DNA of 37,074 bases. Origin: an uncultured Thiocystis sp. GTDB lineage: Bacteria; Pseudomonadota; Gammaproteobacteria; Chromatiales; Chromatiaceae. The position numbers were made by a program, and so were the translations under genes. The notes under the pieces were generated by a model, which was not told the DNA's origin, searched no databases, and worked only from the letters and a program-made list of their open reading frames with translations. Each line of letters opens with the position of its first letter. Position 1 is the stretch's first letter. Positions 26,005 through 32,392 of this stretch are shown here, piece after piece. The DNA lies in the NCBI RefSeq assembly GCF_903866365.1, contig NZ_CAIPNF010000318.1:1-37074 (forward strand). The letters run 5' to 3'.

Positions 26005-26775
26005 TCAACCGAGCGTATAGCCGGCATCCACATTGAGCGTTGCACCGGTGACCAGCCGGGCGCGCGAGGAGGCGAGAAAGAGGACGGCATCGGCGACATC
26101 CGCGGGGGTGACGATCTGTTGTTTGAGGACATGGCGAGCCTGGACGGTGGACGCGATCAAATCGGTCTGGCCGCCCCACATCTCCGAGGCGACCACCCCC
26201 GGCGCGACGCCGTTGACGCGGATGCCCCTTGGCCCAAGACCCAGGGCCAGCCGCCGGGTCAGCATGTCGAGCCCGGCCTTGCTAACCGAATAGCTGGTCG
26301 AGGTGCAGGCGGCAAACGGATGTTGTCCGCAGGCCGACGAAAGATTGATGACGACTGGGGCATCGCTGCGCTCCAGGAGTCCGGCGCACGCCTGGGTCAT
26401 CGCGAACGGGGCGATCAGATTGGTTTCCAGGGTCGCCCGCCAGGCATCGACGCTTTCTTCCAGCTCGCCGGAGTCGAGGATGACGCCAGCGTTGTTGACC
26501 AGGACATCCAGCCGCCCGGATTGCCCGGCGATGGTCGAGACCAGTTGCGCGCGAAAGTCCGCGTCCGTGACGTCGCCGACCAGGGCGATCAAGGTTCCGT
26601 TGGCGATCTGGTCCGGCCAGCGTTCGGTCAGCCGCTCCAGCTTTCCAGGATCGCGTCCGAAGGTATAGACGCGATCGCCGGACGCCAGAAATCCCGCCAC
26701 CAGTCCGGCGCCGATGCCAGAGGCGCCGCCGCTGATGCAGACCGTGCGGCCAGATTCGCGACCTGGAACGCTCAT
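26005..26775 (-). CDS. Short-chain dehydrogenase/reductase (last gene of the zinc-pterin operon)
   Basis: A 256-residue classical SDR. The NAD(P) motif is SGGASGIGAG (about 15-24), the NNAG motif is LVNNAGVIL, and the catalytic Ser-Tyr-Lys lies in VINLSSACGQHP...TSYSVSKAGLDML (YxxxK = YSVSK). The C-terminal VNGVAPGVVASEMW and GATLNVDAGYTLG are typical. Arg in the TFGRDPGKLERL segment after the second strand favours NADPH. The start overlaps the preceding SDR stop by ATGA. Its position after a PTPS and another SDR suggests a pteridine or pterin side-chain reductase, but the sequence alone does not prove a pterin substrate; 3-oxoacyl-ACP-type activity cannot be excluded. Confidence 0.85.
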   Translation of the reverse strand: MSVPGRESGRTVCISGGASGIGAGLVAGFLASGDRVYTFGRDPGKLERLTERWPDQIANGTLIALVGDVTDADFRAQLVSTIAGQSGRLDVLVNNAGVILDSGELEESVDAWRATLETNLIAPFAMTQACAGLLERSDAPVVINLSSACGQHPFAACTSTSYSVSKAGLDMLTRRLALGLGPRGIRVNGVAPGVVASEMWGGQTDLIASTVQARHVLKQQIVTPADVADAVLFLASSRARLVTGATLNVDAGYTLG

Positions 26776-27473
26776 CGTTCGCGCTGCCCCAGATTGGCGT
26801 GGATCAGCGCCCCGTTCAGCACCGGCGCATGGGCCGCGAAGGCGACCGCCTCGGCGATCTCCTCCGGCTCGATCAGACGGTCGAAGGCGGAGAGTCCCGT
26901 GAGCGCGGCCAGGGTGTCCGGGTTGTCGCCGATCAGCGCGCGCAATTGCTCGGTGTCGGTGAAGCCGGGACAGATCATGCAGGTATGGATGCCGCGCCCG
27001 GCGAGATCCTGACAGGTCGCGCGCATCATGCCGGCCAGCGCATGCTTGGCGATGACATAGCTCGCGACCCCCGGTACCGCCTTTTCGGCCAGGGTCGAGC
27101 CGATGTAGATCAGGCTCGATCCCCGGCCCATGCGTGGCACGATCAGTTGGTTCAACCCATTGGCGGCCAGGATGTTGAGTTCGAGCGCCGCGCGCAGATC
27201 CGCGCTGGGAAGGCCGTCGATCCGATCCGAGCGCATGACGGAGGCGTTATGGACCAGACAGACCCGCCCGGCATCGGCAAGCCACGGCTGAAGCGGCGCA
27301 TCCAGCGAGGCTACCGCATCGGGTTCGGCAAGATCGCAAGCGAGATTCTCGACTCCAGACTCGGGACAGGGACGGCGCGAGAGGTTGACGACGGCCCAGC
27401 CGTCGACCAGAAAGCGGGTGGCGATGGCGCGCCCGATGCCGGAGCTGGCGCCGGTGACGATCAAAAGGTTCAT
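26772..27473 (-). CDS. Short-chain dehydrogenase/reductase, sepiapterin-reductase-like by context
   Basis: A 233-residue SDR starting MNLLIVTGASSGIGRAIATR. The cofactor loop is TGASSGIG (about 7-14) and Arg follows in NLSRRP, suggesting NADPH. The NNAG motif is altered to VHNAS. The catalytic residues are in YIGSTLAEKAVPGVASYVIAK (YxxxK = YVIAK). The region after it, CMICPGFTDTEQLRALI, gives a short substrate loop. Bacterial and animal sepiapterin reductases are SDRs of this size, and direct overlap (ATGA) with the PTPS gene upstream makes a 6-pyruvoyl- or related pterin substrate plausible. That assignment is inferred from context, not from diagnostic residues. Confidence 0.85.
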   Translation of the reverse strand: MNLLIVTGASSGIGRAIATRFLVDGWAVVNLSRRPCPESGVENLACDLAEPDAVASLDAPLQPWLADAGRVCLVHNASVMRSDRIDGLPSADLRAALELNILAANGLNQLIVPRMGRGSSLIYIGSTLAEKAVPGVASYVIAKHALAGMMRATCQDLAGRGIHTCMICPGFTDTEQLRALIGDNPDTLAALTGLSAFDRLIEPEEIAEAVAFAAHAPVLNGALIHANLGQRER

Positions 27474-27985
27474 GCGGAAGACTCCCAGGATGAAAAGGCC
27501 CATTGGTCGAGTCCGGAGGAGACGCCGAGTTCGATGGCGCGCAGATCCTGGCCGGCCAGTTCCGGGCGCGCGCGCAGCCGGACGAGCAACAGCGCCGCCA
27601 GTTCCTCGATGGTGACGTTGCGGATCGGCAGCGGCAGGACATCGCGTTCCAGAAAGGGGATCCGCTCGTCGGCGAAAAGGGCGAAGACCATGCCTTCCCG
27701 ATGTTCGAGGCGCAGATGAGGCGAGCGTTGCGGCAGTAGAACGCGCTCGTCGAGCTGGTCGCAGAGCGCCTTCAGCACCCGTTTGAGCAACACATAATCG
27801 AAGGCGAGACCGTCATCGCCCACCGCCGCCGTGACGGCGCAGCGAACCTGAAAGTTGTGGCCATGGAGGTTTTCCCGCTCGGTCGCCGAGAAGAGGGTGA
27901 AGTGGCCGGCGCTGAAATTAAGATAGTCCTTACTGATCTCGATTCGGGTCAGGGGTTGCTGGGGCGTCACCGGGGAGTCTCTCAT
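27470..27985 (-). CDS. 6-pyruvoyltetrahydropterin synthase/QueD-family protein with E-x2-HGH motif
   Basis: A COG0720 protein of about 171 residues. The zinc ligands are His28 in NFSAGHFTLF and His41/His43 in LHGHNFQV. The Cys that normally precedes HGH (C-x3-HGH in QueD, C-x5-HGH in classic PTPS) is absent. Instead Glu38 gives E-N-L-HGH, the E-x2-HGH pattern which, from memory of the COG0720 literature, marks PTPS-III. PTPS-III enzymes can make 6-hydroxymethyl-dihydropterin and replace FolB. A catalytic IRNVTIEELAALLL segment and a C-terminal Glu in AIELGVSSG follow. The start is uncertain: ATG at 27985 is preferred over a TTG at 27994. It overlaps the next SDR by ATGA and lies just downstream of the DUF2796 gene. 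Confidence 0.82.
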   Translation of the reverse strand: MRDSPVTPQQPLTRIEISKDYLNFSAGHFTLFSATERENLHGHNFQVRCAVTAAVGDDGLAFDYVLLKRVLKALCDQLDERVLLPQRSPHLRLEHREGMVFALFADERIPFLERDVLPLPIRNVTIEELAALLLVRLRARPELAGQDLRAIELGVSSGLDQWAFSSWESSA

Positions 27986-27996
27986 GATCTGCAAGT

Positions 27997-28659
27997 CTAT
28001 CCACTTGGGGCGTTTAGCCCGGAGGATAAACCCCCGTCGCGATCTTCATCGAAACGTGCGCCTGACAGGGGCACGAAGAACACCACCGGGTTGACAGGCG
28101 TCAGTTCCGCCTCGCCCCGGCCGTCCCTGGTCGCGTAGTGGATCAGCGCTCGTTGCAGGGCCGGAAAACCGACGAAAAGCCCGAGCGCGGCGGAATCCAG
28201 ACGGTCCGGGCGGGCGCAGCGGAAGCGGTAGCGTGCCGTTAAATGCGCGGGTTCCGCGGTGCCAGGGTCTTGACCGCGCGTGCCGGTCTGCCGATGGTCG
28301 GCGAAATGGGCATCCACACTGGAATCGACCAACCGACACTCGGCATTCGTGTTAAAGCGGATCATGCCGTCGCCGGCCTTCAGGTTTTCCCTGGCCAGAC
28401 GCAGGGTTTCCTGCTCGTCGGCGGTCCGTGGCTTCTGTTGGAAGCCGAGCAGAGTGGCCGCCGGCGCGCCCAGTTCAACGAGAACCTCGGGACCGTCGGC
28501 GTTCATGGCAATGCGCGCGACCCCCTGGACATGCGCGCTCGGCTGGCGGGGCGGCGCTTCCCGCGCGCTCGCCGCTCCCGCAAGCCCGATGGCGACAATC
28601 AGGATCGCCAGTCGGCGGCGTGGTGCGAGACGTGGCGACAGGCTCATTTCGCGCGTCAA
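27997..28659 (-). CDS. DUF2796 (ZrgA-like) periplasmic zinc-uptake-linked protein
   Basis: A 220-residue secreted protein of the DUF2796 family, whose founding member ZrgA is connected with zinc uptake in Vibrio. The N-terminal signal is RRRLAILIVAIGLAGAASA (cut about residue 32). The mature start SAHVQGVARIAMNADGPEVLVEL is the family signature, followed by LLGFQQKPRTADEQETL. Possible metal ligands are the histidines of AHFADHRQ and surrounding acids. The His-rich loop of ZrgA is much reduced here. A TTG at 28659 overlaps the zur stop and has AAAGG 7 bases upstream; an ATG at 28647 is the alternative. Placement directly after znuCB-zur supports a zinc function. Confidence 0.82.
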   Translation of the reverse strand: MTREMSLSPRLAPRRRLAILIVAIGLAGAASAREAPPRQPSAHVQGVARIAMNADGPEVLVELGAPAATLLGFQQKPRTADEQETLRLARENLKAGDGMIRFNTNAECRLVDSSVDAHFADHRQTGTRGQDPGTAEPAHLTARYRFRCARPDRLDSAALGLFVGFPALQRALIHYATRDGRGEAELTPVNPVVFFVPLSGARFDEDRDGGLSSGLNAPSG

Positions 28660-29111
28660 TCCGTCGCCTTTCCGGCGCAGTTCGCGCAGGTGCCGATCAC
28701 CTCCACCACCCGCCGCCGGGGTCGGAAGCCGGTCTCGCTGGCGGCGGATTTCAGGCTGGCGGCGATGGCCTCGTCCTCCAGCTCGGTCACCAGGCCGCAG
28801 TCGGCGCAGATGAGGAATTGGCTAAAGTGCGGATGATCCGGGTGGGTGCAGCCGACATAGGCGTGCAGACTCTCCAGCTTGTGCACCAGTCCCTGCTCCA
28901 GCAGGAAATCCAGCGCCCGATAGACCGTCGGCGGTGCCAGCGGGCGCGAGCCGTCGCGCATGGCCTCCAGGATTTCATAGGCGCCAAGCGGTCGCCGCGC
29001 GGCGCAGAGGATCTGTAGCACCTGTCGTCGCTGCGCCGTGAGACGCACGCCCCGCCGCTGACAGAGCGTATCGGCCTCTTCCAGCGCGGCCTCGGGCGGC
29101 TTGACGTCCAT
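28656..29111 (-). CDS. zur: Zinc uptake regulator Zur (Fur family)
   Basis: A 151-residue Fur-family repressor. The winged-helix N-terminus has LTAQRRQVLQILCAARRPLGAYEIL and the recognition region PPTVYRALDFLLEQGLVHKLES. The metal-binding half has HPDHPHFSQFLICADCGLVTELED and, at the C-terminus, GTCANC. The two CxxC pairs form the structural zinc site. The TVYRALDFLLEQGL pattern and its place beside znuCB favour Zur over Fur. With zinc bound, Zur would repress the operon. It begins 16 bases after znuB and its stop overlaps the start of the DUF2796 gene. A candidate operator lies upstream of znuC at 30835-30851. Confidence 0.92.
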   Translation of the reverse strand: MDVKPPEAALEEADTLCQRRGVRLTAQRRQVLQILCAARRPLGAYEILEAMRDGSRPLAPPTVYRALDFLLEQGLVHKLESLHAYVGCTHPDHPHFSQFLICADCGLVTELEDEAIAASLKSAASETGFRPRRRVVEVIGTCANCAGKATD

Positions 29112-29127
29112 CGGATCGACCTCTCGT

Positions 29128-29976
29128 TCAGGCTCGGGTTGCCTGACGCAGCGCGCCGCGCCAGGTCAGAAAACGGCTCAACAGCGCCGACAGCACATAG
29201 ACGCCGCCGGCCAGCAGAATCATGGTCGGCCCCGCCGGCAGATCGGGACCGTAGGAAAGCCCCAGGCCCAGGGAGGTGAAGAGCCCGCCGAGCAGGGTCG
29301 CGATCACCATCATGCCGCCGAGCGAGTGGACATAATGGCCGGCGATGGCGGCCGGCAGGGTGAGCAGCGCGATCACCAGGATCAGACCGACCACCTGGAT
29401 CAGCAGCACCACGGTCACGGCCACCAGACAGAGCAGCAGCAGATAGAAAAAGGTCACCGGCACGCCGCGCAGTCGGGCGAATTCCTCGTCAAAGGTGACG
29501 GCGAGGAATTGACGATAGAAAAGCGCCACGGTCAGCATCAGCACCAGATCCAGGCCGGCCATGAACCAGAGTTCGCGGGTCGGGACCAGCAGGATGTTGC
29601 CGAACAGAAAGCTCATGAGATCCGTGGCATAGCCGGGCGTCTTGGCGATGAAGAGGATGCCGACCGCCATGCCGATCGCCCAGAGCGCGCCGATCAGGGT
29701 GTCTTCCTGCATCTTCCAGAACAGACGCACGGTGCCGATCAGCAACGCCGAGAGAATGGCGGCGAGCAGCGCGCCCAGCAGCGGATCGAAGCCGTAATAG
29801 AGCGCGGCCCCCATCCCGCCGAGCACCGAATGCGCGATGCCCCCAGCCATGAAGGCGATCCGCTTGACGACCACGAAGGTGCCGATCACCCCGCAGCCGA
29901 GGCTGGCCAGGAGACCGGCCAGCAGGGCGGTCTGGAGAAAGGCGTGCTCGCTCAGGGCGGAAAGAAATTCGCTCAT
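29128..29976 (-). CDS. znuB: Zinc ABC transporter permease ZnuB
   Basis: A 282-residue inner-membrane permease of the ABC-3 metal transporter family with about eight hydrophobic helices. Conserved parts are the N-terminal FLQTALLAGLLASLGCGVIGTFVVVKR (split across the first helix), MAGGIAHSVLGGMGAALYYG, the central KTPGYATDLMSFLFGNILLVPTRELW region and the C-terminal LPAAIAGHYVHSLGGMMVIA and SYGPDLPAGPTMILLAGGVYV. Zinc specificity rests on the zur and znuC neighbours; the family also carries manganese. The start overlaps the znuC stop by ATGA. Confidence 0.93.
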   Translation of the reverse strand: MSEFLSALSEHAFLQTALLAGLLASLGCGVIGTFVVVKRIAFMAGGIAHSVLGGMGAALYYGFDPLLGALLAAILSALLIGTVRLFWKMQEDTLIGALWAIGMAVGILFIAKTPGYATDLMSFLFGNILLVPTRELWFMAGLDLVLMLTVALFYRQFLAVTFDEEFARLRGVPVTFFYLLLLCLVAVTVVLLIQVVGLILVIALLTLPAAIAGHYVHSLGGMMVIATLLGGLFTSLGLGLSYGPDLPAGPTMILLAGGVYVLSALLSRFLTWRGALRQATRA

Positions 29977-30785
29977 CTCGAATGCCGATGCGCGACTAGG
30001 CGCACATGCCCGCCATAGAGTTGCTGGATGGTTTCGGCATTCACCGCGTCGGTCCCATGATAGATGAGCGTGCGATTCAAACAGGCTACCCGGCTGACAT
30101 AGTCCGAAATAAAGGCGATATCGTGCGAGACCAGCAGAATCGTCAGGCGTCGGTTGAGCACCGCAAGCAGATCGAAAACATCGCTTTCGACCCGCTGATC
30201 GATATTGGCGGTCGGCTCGTCGAGGATGAGGATCTCTGGCTCCCCGGCCAGCGCCCGCGCCAGCAGCACCCGCTGCAACTGGCCGCCGGACAGGGTGCCG
30301 ATCCGCCGCCGGGCCAGATCCAGCGCCTCCACTTCCTCCAGCGCCCGTCGCGCGGCGTCCCGATCGGCCGCCCGCTGCCAGCCAAGCATCGGCCCGATGC
30401 CCAGCCGCCCCATCGCCACCGCCTGTTCCACCGAGATGGGGAAATCGCGCGGAAAACTCGGGAATTGCGGGACATACCCGATCCGCCGCGTGACCTGTCG
30501 CGGCGGCTGGCCGAGCACCCGGATCTGTCCAGTCTGAGGTGCCAGCAGACCCAGGATCAGCTTCAAGAGGGTACTCTTGCCGCCGGCATTGGGTCCGACC
30601 AGGCCCACGAATTCGCCGGGCGTGATCGACAGATTCACCTGCTCCAGCACCAGCGAATCGCCATAGGAAAAACTAAGATCACGGACCAGAATGACCGGTG
30701 CCTCCGGGCGTTCGGCTTCAGGCGGGATTACGGACGCATCCTCCCCGTGATCGAAGGGGGACGGCGGAAGAGTGTGTGCGAACAT
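29973..30785 (-). CDS. znuC: Zinc ABC transporter ATP-binding protein ZnuC
   Basis: A 270-residue ATPase energising ZnuB. Walker A is GPNAGGKSTLLKL (about 64-76), the Q-loop is in YVPQFPSFPRDFP, the ABC signature is LSGGQLQRVLLARAL, and Walker B is ILILDEPTANID with the H-loop His in LLVSHD. About 30 N-terminal residues precede the ABC core (DASVIPPEAERPEAPVILV); a later start is possible. First gene of the znuC-znuB-zur-zrgA-PTPS-SDR-SDR run. The periplasmic zinc-binding protein ZnuA is not in the window and must be encoded elsewhere. Confidence 0.94.
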   Translation of the reverse strand: MFAHTLPPSPFDHGEDASVIPPEAERPEAPVILVRDLSFSYGDSLVLEQVNLSITPGEFVGLVGPNAGGKSTLLKLILGLLAPQTGQIRVLGQPPRQVTRRIGYVPQFPSFPRDFPISVEQAVAMGRLGIGPMLGWQRAADRDAARRALEEVEALDLARRRIGTLSGGQLQRVLLARALAGEPEILILDEPTANIDQRVESDVFDLLAVLNRRLTILLVSHDIAFISDYVSRVACLNRTLIYHGTDAVNAETIQQLYGGHVRLVAHRHSR

Positions 30786-30834: not shown

Positions 30835-30851
30835 CGGATAGAGTATAACGT
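30835..30851 (-). promoter_or_regulatory. Candidate Zur operator upstream of znuC
   Basis: On the minus strand the site reads ACGTTATACTCTATCCG, matching 11 of 17 positions of the gammaproteobacterial Zur palindrome ATGTTATAATATAACAT, with a good left half and a weak right half. It lies about 50 bases before the znuC start, within the divergent region shared with the gene at 30952, and includes TATACT, a possible -10. The consensus is from memory and the match is imperfect. Confidence 0.35.
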
Positions 30852-30951
30852 CTTTCATTCCGCTGCCGCGATCCCGCCATCCGAGAGGACATTCCGCGCC
30901 GGGAGCGTTAGGATTGCCCGCACCCGGAATCCGACGCGACGCCAAATCGCC

Positions 30952-31642: not shown

Positions 31643-32224
31643 CTAAAAAACCTTGGTGAGCGCAAAGCCCGCGAGCAGCAGGAAAAAGACACCGCTCGCC
31701 TGATGCAACCGATGCAGCGGGATGGATCTCAGCAACCGGCATCCCACCAGCACACCCAGCGCCGAGGTCACGGACAAGGCCAGGGTGGCGCCGATCCACA
31801 CCGAGAGCGGCGGCAGGCTGCTCGCCAGACCGGCGACCGCCAGTTGCGTCTTGTCGCCCATCTCGGCCAGCAGGATCATCAGGAAAGTGGTCAGCGCGAT
31901 ACCATCGACGCGGCGTTCATGCACAACATCGCTCTCTTCGTCCTCGGTGGCGCGCAGTGACAGAACCCCGAAGACCGCGAAGAGGATTGCGACAACGCCG
32001 GCCAGCACCCGCTCCGGAATCCACTGGGACAAACCGACGCCGAACACCACGGCCAGGGTATTCAGTACCACGAAGGCGGCAATGGAGCCGAACAGCACCG
32101 GCCCGTGGCGATGTTTTGCCGCGAGGGTCATGCAGACGAGCTGCGATTTGTCGCCCAGTTCAGCGAGAAAGACGAGACCAAAGGTGGTGATTGCGGGGGG
32201 CAGCCAGGCAATCGAATCGGACAT
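31643..32224 (-). CDS. UPF0016 (GDT1/TMEM165-type) Mn2+/Ca2+ exporter
   Basis: A 193-residue six-helix membrane protein made of two homologous halves. Each half has the family's E-x-G-D-(K/R)-(S/T) motif: VFLAELGDKSQLVCMTLAA near residue 20 and LLAEMGDKTQLAVAGLAS near residue 125. A short acidic cytoplasmic loop (ATEDEESDVVHE) lies between. Family members export manganese (bacterial MneA/MntX type) or exchange cations for protons. The ATG at 32224 gives the normal MSDSIAWLPPA start; the longer upstream frame is really the RNA leader. The yybP-ykoY-like leader (32236-32392) supports manganese as the substrate. It converges with the lipid-kinase-like gene, with 7 bases between the stops. Confidence 0.9.
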   Translation of the reverse strand: MSDSIAWLPPAITTFGLVFLAELGDKSQLVCMTLAAKHRHGPVLFGSIAAFVVLNTLAVVFGVGLSQWIPERVLAGVVAILFAVFGVLSLRATEDEESDVVHERRVDGIALTTFLMILLAEMGDKTQLAVAGLASSLPPLSVWIGATLALSVTSALGVLVGCRLLRSIPLHRLHQASGVFFLLLAGFALTKVF

Positions 32225-32235
32225 GGAAGACGCTG

Positions 32236-32392
32236 CTGGGGGCCGGGCAAGGAAACCTTTGGACCAGACGAAACGCGCCCAGCCCCAGCCAGACATCGCG
32301 CCAAGCCCGAGGTTTCGCCAAGCCGAATGACCGCCTGCGTCATGGTGTTGCCACCAAGTCCGTTGACACCGGCTCCTTCCGTGGCGCAAGCA
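32236..32392 (-). ncRNA. Probable yybP-ykoY manganese riboswitch (aptamer plus expression platform)
   Basis: On the minus strand an outer stem pairs GCGCCA (32382-32387) with TGGCGC (about 32299-32304). Between the arms lie, in order, GGAAGGAGCC, GGTGTCAACGG, TTGGTGGCAACACCATGACGC and GGCTTGGCGAAACC, which parallel the conserved elements of yybP-ykoY leaders of proteobacterial mntP and UPF0016 genes (GGAG-AGCC, GUCAAC, CAUGACGC, GGCGAGACC). The stretch after the aptamer can fold into a strong hairpin, GCCCAGCCCCAG (32277-32288, plus strand) against CTGGGGGCCGGGC (32236-32248), just before the start codon: a likely expression platform. No covariance model was run. Confidence 0.72.

Follow-up and report, generated by a model that had tools for sequence, protein, structure and literature searches.

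A divergent PTPS-fold enzyme and its reductase partner share an array with zinc-uptake genes in a purple sulfur bacterium

The contig stretch analysed here (37,074 nucleotides of NZ_CAIPNF010000318.1, from an uncultured Thiocystis sp.; hereafter the window) carries seven minus-strand genes at 26005–30785, in the order znuC, znuB, zur, zrgA (DUF2796), PTPS, SDR1 and SDR2. The array is composed of two modules: znuC-znuB-zur-zrgA, for zinc uptake and control, and an older PTPS-SDR1(-SDR2) unit that is mostly free of zinc genes. Most interest attaches to the second, in which an altered PTPS is almost always paired with the same reductase and has no known product. Judged on its motifs, the PTPS is a divergent COG0720 subfamily with an altered active site, neither QueD nor a standard PTPS-III, and it is best read as acting, together with the reductase, on a substrate that is perhaps pterin-like. 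Our overall reading, which we hold at a probability of roughly 0.45, is of two co-transcribed modules in which a zinc-dependent PTPS and SDR1 would convert a dihydropterin-type substrate into a new product.

The pairing was assessed in a scan of named genomes, whose best 80 of 244 loci divide into 33 counted as Chromatiaceae, all but L065 (placed there by similarity) bearing that title, and 47 from elsewhere, titled mostly as Pseudomonadales or Gammaproteobacteria. No locus spans more than about 12.5 kb, and contig ends cut some of them short, so upstream genes may be undercounted; genes were predicted with rough purpose-made open reading frame (ORF) callers, and neighbours were labelled on 40% identity to a window protein or on cluster membership, which other zinc families would escape. 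SDR1 directly follows PTPS in 75 of the 80 (32/33 Chromatiaceae, 43/47 others), a pairing far beyond chance. SDR2 comes next in 28/33 Chromatiaceae and in none of the other 47 loci, and znuB or znuC lies upstream on the PTPS strand in 10/33 and 0/47, respectively. Because SDR1 is so constant and znu so infrequent, we regard PTPS-SDR1(-SDR2) as a separate module. Among named relatives, the one nearest the window PTPS comes from Thiocystis minor, at 89% identity; close orthologues (≥67% identity) occur in 41 of 195 genomes of the order, the remaining matches being distant. A phylum-wide search returned one genome of 398, the window's own, a rarity that is not firm as at most nine candidates were scored per genome. 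The PTPS-SDR1 pair was also seen on a metagenome contig titled Klebsiella pneumoniae (L109), a label that is probably wrong.

Arg40, Glu41, Asp82, Glu83 and Ser160 of the PTPS are invariant in 81/81 alignment rows. The zinc-type histidines His31, His44 and His46 are likewise invariant, with HGH kept; given these three, the enzyme is probably zinc-dependent. A profile built from 32 sequences has Plasmodium PTPS as its top match (1y13, 5.3e-30), followed by a group comprising QueD2, QueD and others at 4.9e-5 or weaker (QueD and QueD2, 4.9e-5 to 2.3e-4). Searching Foldseek with the AlphaFold2 model (mean pLDDT 94.7) placed four Plasmodium entries first, at TMq 0.83–0.84. The ExxHGH motif, which the available text of PMC5041015 gives as the sign of PTPS-III, is present, with Glu41 in every row; in the Plasmodium enzyme the Glu of this motif is required for formation of 6-hydroxymethyl-dihydropterin (available text of PMC2229834). 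The LDH His and VSES Glu expected of a PTPS-III are both missing: LDE stands in this subfamily for the LDH of Plasmodium PTPS and E. coli QueD, and Ser160 for the Glu of the Plasmodium VSES (E83 and S160, aligned to 1y13 residues, in 81/81 rows). The QueD Glu falls two to four columns from Ser160 in MAFFT alignments, and none of the 81 rows has an acidic residue at 158–160. In PTPS enzymes the LDH His is catalytic and a VSES-type Glu holds the pterin ring.

The COG0720 subfamilies are reportedly classified in Phillips 2012, and the present one may already bear a number in that scheme. At the Cys position of the QueD (PTPS-I) motif CxxxHGH stands Arg40, in 81/81 rows. The PTPS-II motif CxxxxxHGH is likewise absent, position 38 being Thr in 74/81 rows and Cys in none, and the window PTPS has no FGPAQ, the PTPS-IV motif (PMC5445326). 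The function of PTPS-V is called unclear in the available text of PMC5041015.

Both partners are classical SDRs, with TGx3GxG and YxxxK in 22/22 SDR1 and 15/15 SDR2 rows (Ser allowed for the first Thr). An earlier sequence-only reading of this DNA had joined the two to the PTPS as the reductases of a pterin pathway; SDR1 holds that position in nearly all loci, SDR2 was found at none of the 47 loci outside Chromatiaceae, and neither has TGx3RxG (0/22 and 0/15 rows), the pteridine reductase (FolM/PruA) motif according to the available text of PMC13259868. Against a pteridine reductase model SDR2 scores 125.9 bits, with a cut-off of 288. Among the best 60 solved chains for each, SDR1 lies closest to glucose-dehydrogenase and FabG types, and L-xylulose reductase, glucose dehydrogenase and further SDRs are among those nearest to SDR2. 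Homology does not suffice to name a substrate for either SDR.

The sequence-only reading had offered, beside a special pterin, which may be the product, a folate bypass at low zinc. In the form of the bypass weighed here, a PTPS-III would form 6-hydroxymethyl-dihydropterin instead of FolB. The ExxHGH Glu favours it, as does closeness to a Plasmodium enzyme whose Glu yields that very product (PMC2229834, available text); so, too, does a nearby folK, to which we return. The gene content of carriers argues otherwise. Searches within the window's family took in 50 genomes, of which 30 carry the PTPS and 20 do not; FolB is present in all 50, hence in 30/30 carriers. FolE2 was found in 49/50 (30/30 carriers) and FolE1 in 31/50 (23/30 carriers), and the usual precursor is therefore available in these Chromatiaceae carriers; PCD (pterin-4a-carbinolamine dehydratase) was found in 47/50 (29/30 carriers). 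Searches for FolB, FolK, FolP and PTPS covered 37 of the 47 non-Chromatiaceae carriers (all but L083, L085, L086, L089, L091, L096, L099, L102, L105 and L114). FolB is lacking in nine of these, FolK in nine, a FolP of canonical strength in ten, and all three in eight: G599 (L075), G601 (L077), G603, G605, G616, G617, G627 and G628, the first two being chromosome-level single-contig assemblies. A permutation run beside these counts, with genomes treated as independent, gave 0/100,000. Absence of FolB from nine of the 37 first seemed to support the bypass; the concurrent absence of FolK and FolP reversed this. The PTPS does not look like a stand-in for a lost FolB in genomes that keep FolK and FolP, as eight of the nine FolB-less carriers lack these as well; the ninth, G606, has both, in a 2.0 Mb genome titled as a K189A-clade isolate. 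With the Plasmodium His and VSES Glu replaced, and the PTPS tied to an SDR, we consider the folate bypass improbable.

The eight folate-gene-lacking carriers are spread over no fewer than two parts of the PTPS tree, where the comparison group 'fol' includes L110 (G625), with FolB and FolK and no canonical FolP. De novo folate synthesis is apparently absent from these eight genomes, and PTPS is thus retained where late folate synthesis is gone. Six of them contain a weak Pterin_bind match (~310 residues); in G599, the genome in which this was checked, the weak FolP-like protein is above cut-off for a methyltetrahydrofolate:corrinoid methyltransferase model, and the neighbours of the match in G599, G601 and G626 resemble, by eye, a corrinoid methyl-transfer cluster. 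The same eight genomes also carry MetH-length pterin-binding proteins.

Zur-linked QueD paralogues are known and have been proposed as a low-zinc queuosine backup (PMC2770081, available text), and the sequence-only reading had set the PTPS beside zinc-sparing paralogues of this kind, as something beyond a simple QueD backup. A QueD-type backup would suit the zinc locus, and 32 of the 47 non-Chromatiaceae loci have a gene for a queuosine precursor transporter close to PTPS (for example, L078 7408–8133); because its strand varies, we read it as salvage or synteny. The window's genome has its own QueD, a three-domain PTPS ORF at 2023–4551 of L130 (contig C195), between queC-like and queE-like genes, which retains CxxxHGH in the middle domain only. 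The Arg in place of Cys and this separate locus led us to reject the backup role, which is also at odds with the SDR partners and, as zinc sparing, with the invariant zinc-type histidines; we judge it very improbable. In 36 of the 37 non-Chromatiaceae carriers tested, the search turned up no other member of the PTPS family, QueD included. Aromatic amino acid hydroxylases were detected in 0/50 genomes of the window's family, by a search whose control gave a match in 1/14 known genomes. The product of the PTPS appears to be neither folate nor queuosine, and both the zinc-sparing and the folate-bypass readings fit poorly.

Upstream of znuC, AAAGACGTTATACTCTATCC agrees with the published E. coli Zur pattern (PMC6103462, available text) at 14 of 18 specified positions. 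When the stretch is shuffled, a fraction of 0.035 of the shuffles score as high, and three other window matches, in two places, equal it. The core GTTATACT recurs before znuC in the two nearest species (L035 and L128) and in L045, L053, L054, L055 and L060, scoring anywhere between good and ordinary, and nothing convincing precedes znuC in L044, L056, L061, L063 or L135. Just 5' of PTPS no convincing Zur-like site was seen; scanning 2.5 kb upstream gave a best score of 15/18, at −1263 in L036, in a scan that had no control. A zinc-type gene of any kind (znu, zur, zrgA, DUF3299 or MacB-type) lies upstream of PTPS in 18/33 Chromatiaceae and 0/47 other loci. Two arrangements, znu/zur and MacB/DUF3299, make up the 18, the DUF3299 and MacB-type genes being counted as zinc-type by analogy alone: the available text of PMC9820375 likens the zrg permease to MacB, and a DUF3299 protein matches structure 4hsp, titled just 'hypothetical protein'. 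The zinc link of the PTPS module is conserved in part of one family, and zinc control of the module in the window is plausible.

The seven ORFs are present as the sequence-only reading described, and their Pfam families are ABC_tran, ABC-3, FUR, ZrgA (PF10986, the former DUF2796), PTPS and, twice, SDR (Table 1). The ZrgA protein scores 116.7 bits with PF10986, above the cut-off of 27.4, and 79.5 bits with the NCBIfam model, below its cut-off of 185. The claims of overlapping junctions and of gaps no longer than 16 nt held in part. ATGA overlaps join znuC/znuB, PTPS/SDR1 (SDR1 starting at ATG 27473) and SDR1/SDR2, and znuB and zur are 16 nt apart. zrgA may start at ATG 28647, 8 nt past the end of zur, in which case the supposed zur/zrgA overlap is lost. 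An AGGAGA-type ribosome site before the corresponding GTG in L035 and L128 (ATGAGA at this position in the window) makes GTG 27970 the probable start of PTPS, giving 166 residues. With this start zrgA and PTPS lie 26 nt apart in the window, the loosest junction of its array; the corresponding gap measures 193 nt in L035 and 166 nt in L128. The gaps of L035 and L128 contain palindromic sequence, and the change may have run either way; the idea that the window lost this spacer by deletion was dropped.

Table 1 Genes and other features of the array, in window coordinates
Feature	Coordinates	Strand	Remarks
znuC-like ABC ATPase	29973..30785	-	PF00005; NCBIfam zinc models below cut-off
znuB-like permease	29128..29976	-	PF00950; NCBIfam AztB and ZnuB below cut-off
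zur, Fur-family regulator	28656..29111	-	PF01475; best NCBIfam model Zur, 133.8 bits, below cut-off of 167
zrgA (DUF2796), zinc-binding periplasmic protein	27997..28647	-	PF10986; ORF extends to 28659
PTPS-fold enzyme, divergent subfamily	27470..27970	-	PF01242; ORF extends to 27994
SDR1, fixed PTPS partner	26772..27473	-	PF13561/PF00106; ORF extends to 27503
SDR2	26005..26775	-	PF13561/PF00106
zrgA-PTPS spacer, joint between the two modules	27971..27996	-	26 nt
Zur-box-like site 5' of znuC	30836..30855	-	14/18 specified positions

In L035 (3649–3839) and L128 (4667–4857), 191 nt separate the aligned znuC and znuB ends, which overlap by ATGA in the window; the znu-PTPS array seems to gain or lose spacers at more than a single junction. 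A sequence scan of the window array found no terminator-like or sigma-70-like site. The same scan of the L128 array gave no promoter-like site and four terminator-like sites, against an expectation of 4.0, including one at the znuC–znuB junction. The seven window genes are likely to form one transcript, and the proposal of a single zinc operon gains from their common strand, their tight packing and the Zur-box-like site before znuC, found also in the two nearest species. As to conservation, the uninterrupted seven-gene order was seen only in the window and these two species, contiguity reaching no further among the 80 named loci; direct zrgA–PTPS adjacency occurs there in L035 only, and also in the window and L128. 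L129 seems to be the identical contig to L035.

A sodium/calcium antiporter gene is upstream in 10/33 Chromatiaceae loci, often between zur or zrgA and PTPS. A PCD gene precedes PTPS in 8/33 (seven titled Thiocapsa, plus L065), and an EncFtn-like gene accompanies the PCD gene upstream of PTPS in L041, L043, L052, L057, L058, L062, L065 and L067. Near the zinc array of the window, a GDT1-family divalent cation antiporter gene lies at 31643–32389; the order gdt1, opposite-strand gene, znuC recurs in L035, L044 and L060.

The genes, their order and pairing, the active-site changes and the retention of PTPS without FolB, FolK and FolP are our fixed points; around them we infer substrate, chemistry, zinc need and zinc regulation as follows. 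ZnuCB, Zur and ZrgA would import and sense zinc, and in the window species both modules would probably be on one transcript. A PTPS-fold zinc enzyme, structurally nearest the Plasmodium (PTPS-III) form, would act on a dihydropterin-type substrate, of which dihydroneopterin triphosphate or a relative is the likeliest, and alter its side chain. SDR1 would reduce the resulting product, SDR2 adding an extra step in most Chromatiaceae, and the end product would be neither folate nor queuosine nor a cofactor for aromatic amino acid hydroxylases. Where the module sits in the zinc locus, as it does in some purple sulfur bacteria, it would be co-expressed at low zinc, the zinc enzyme being made together with zinc import.

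Several points weigh against this reading. The LDE in place of LDH and the lack of acidic residues over 158–160 may point to a non-pterin substrate, and neither SDR is near known pterin reductases. PCD is present in 18 of the 20 non-carriers too, so its presence is uninformative, and the FolE and aromatic hydroxylase tests covered the Chromatiaceae alone among the carriers. Adjacent SDR1 is lacking in three of the eight folate-gene-lacking carriers (L098, L112 and L113). Of the 28 folK-bearing non-Chromatiaceae carriers tested, 23 have folK no more than 10 kb from PTPS, always on the opposite strand; this could hint at folate, and we read it as synteny. By our label criteria, moreover, no zinc-type gene is upstream of PTPS in 15/33 Chromatiaceae or in any of the 47 other loci.

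Two rival explanations draw on these points. The PTPS fold could have been re-tooled for another substrate, such as a heterocycle or a sugar phosphate, with reduction by SDR1 to follow. Invariable loss of the VSES Glu and LDH His, SDRs unlike pterin reductases and a PTPS kept without FolB, FolK and FolP favour such a non-pterin enzyme, which the retained fold, zinc-type histidines and ExxHGH, and a PCD gene beside PTPS in eight loci, render somewhat unlikely. It is quite possible, at a little short of even odds, that the PTPS module and the zinc genes of Chromatiaceae are neighbours by chance, with no zinc-dependent role. Such a coincidence accords with the many loci that have no upstream zinc-type gene, with the variable gap and with intervening genes such as the antiporter; two distinct zinc-type arrangements in 18/33 Chromatiaceae, and the tight packing in the window, count against it. 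Set beside these, the pterin-directed PTPS-SDR1 pathway is the reading we prefer. More specifically, and tentatively, PTPS-SDR1 may be an undescribed module of Chromatiaceae and Pseudomonadales-type bacteria in which a COG0720 subfamily with a re-tooled active site (ExxHGH plus LDE, no VSES Glu) makes, together with its reductase, a new reduced pterin or pterin-like cofactor distinct from folate, queuosine and biopterin; certain purple sulfur bacteria would have brought it under zinc control.

PTPS and QueD are labels in wide use for COG0720 proteins, and this subfamily fits neither. Its persistence without FolB, FolK and FolP suggests a metabolite, pterin-type or new, for which no user is known. 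A small pair with an evident ancestral partner lends itself to direct tests with purified proteins. No paper on the PTPS-SDR pair or its zinc locus was among the matches listed in a literature search that lay largely outside subscription journals.

The array can be compared with several known systems. ZnuC, ZnuB, Zur and ZrgA, and the DUF3299 and MacB/FtsX-type genes upstream in relatives, are akin to ZnuABC/ZrgABCDE zinc uptake; unlike here, no pterin-type enzyme is named for the zrg operon in the available text of PMC9820375. QueD and QueD2 share the fold, the zinc-type histidines and a weak profile match, but the present enzyme has Arg for the QueD Cys and an insert of ~40 residues relative to E. 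coli QueD, and its genome holds a separate QueD. Biopterin synthesis by PTPS-II and sepiapterin reductase likewise places an SDR after a PTPS, but with a CxxxxxHGH that is lacking here, where the SDRs are not of pterin-reductase type and no aromatic hydroxylase was detected in 50/50 genomes. PTPS genes in clusters of other genera of the same family, judged by eye to be of tetrahydromethanopterin type (L116–L127 and L131), have ~30% identity, similar length and ENxHGHN in common with ours, but carry Cys before Glu in 10/10 rows, mostly His-Asp for Asp-Glu, and Glu-Glu at 159–160. Plasmodium PTPS (PTPS-III; 1y13, 2a0s) is alike in length, in an insert with RD, in the ExxHGH Glu and in the zinc-type histidines; the window enzyme differs from it in LDE for LDH, in Ser for the VSES Glu, in its SDR partner, and in genomes where FolB coexists with it or where FolB, FolK and FolP are all absent.

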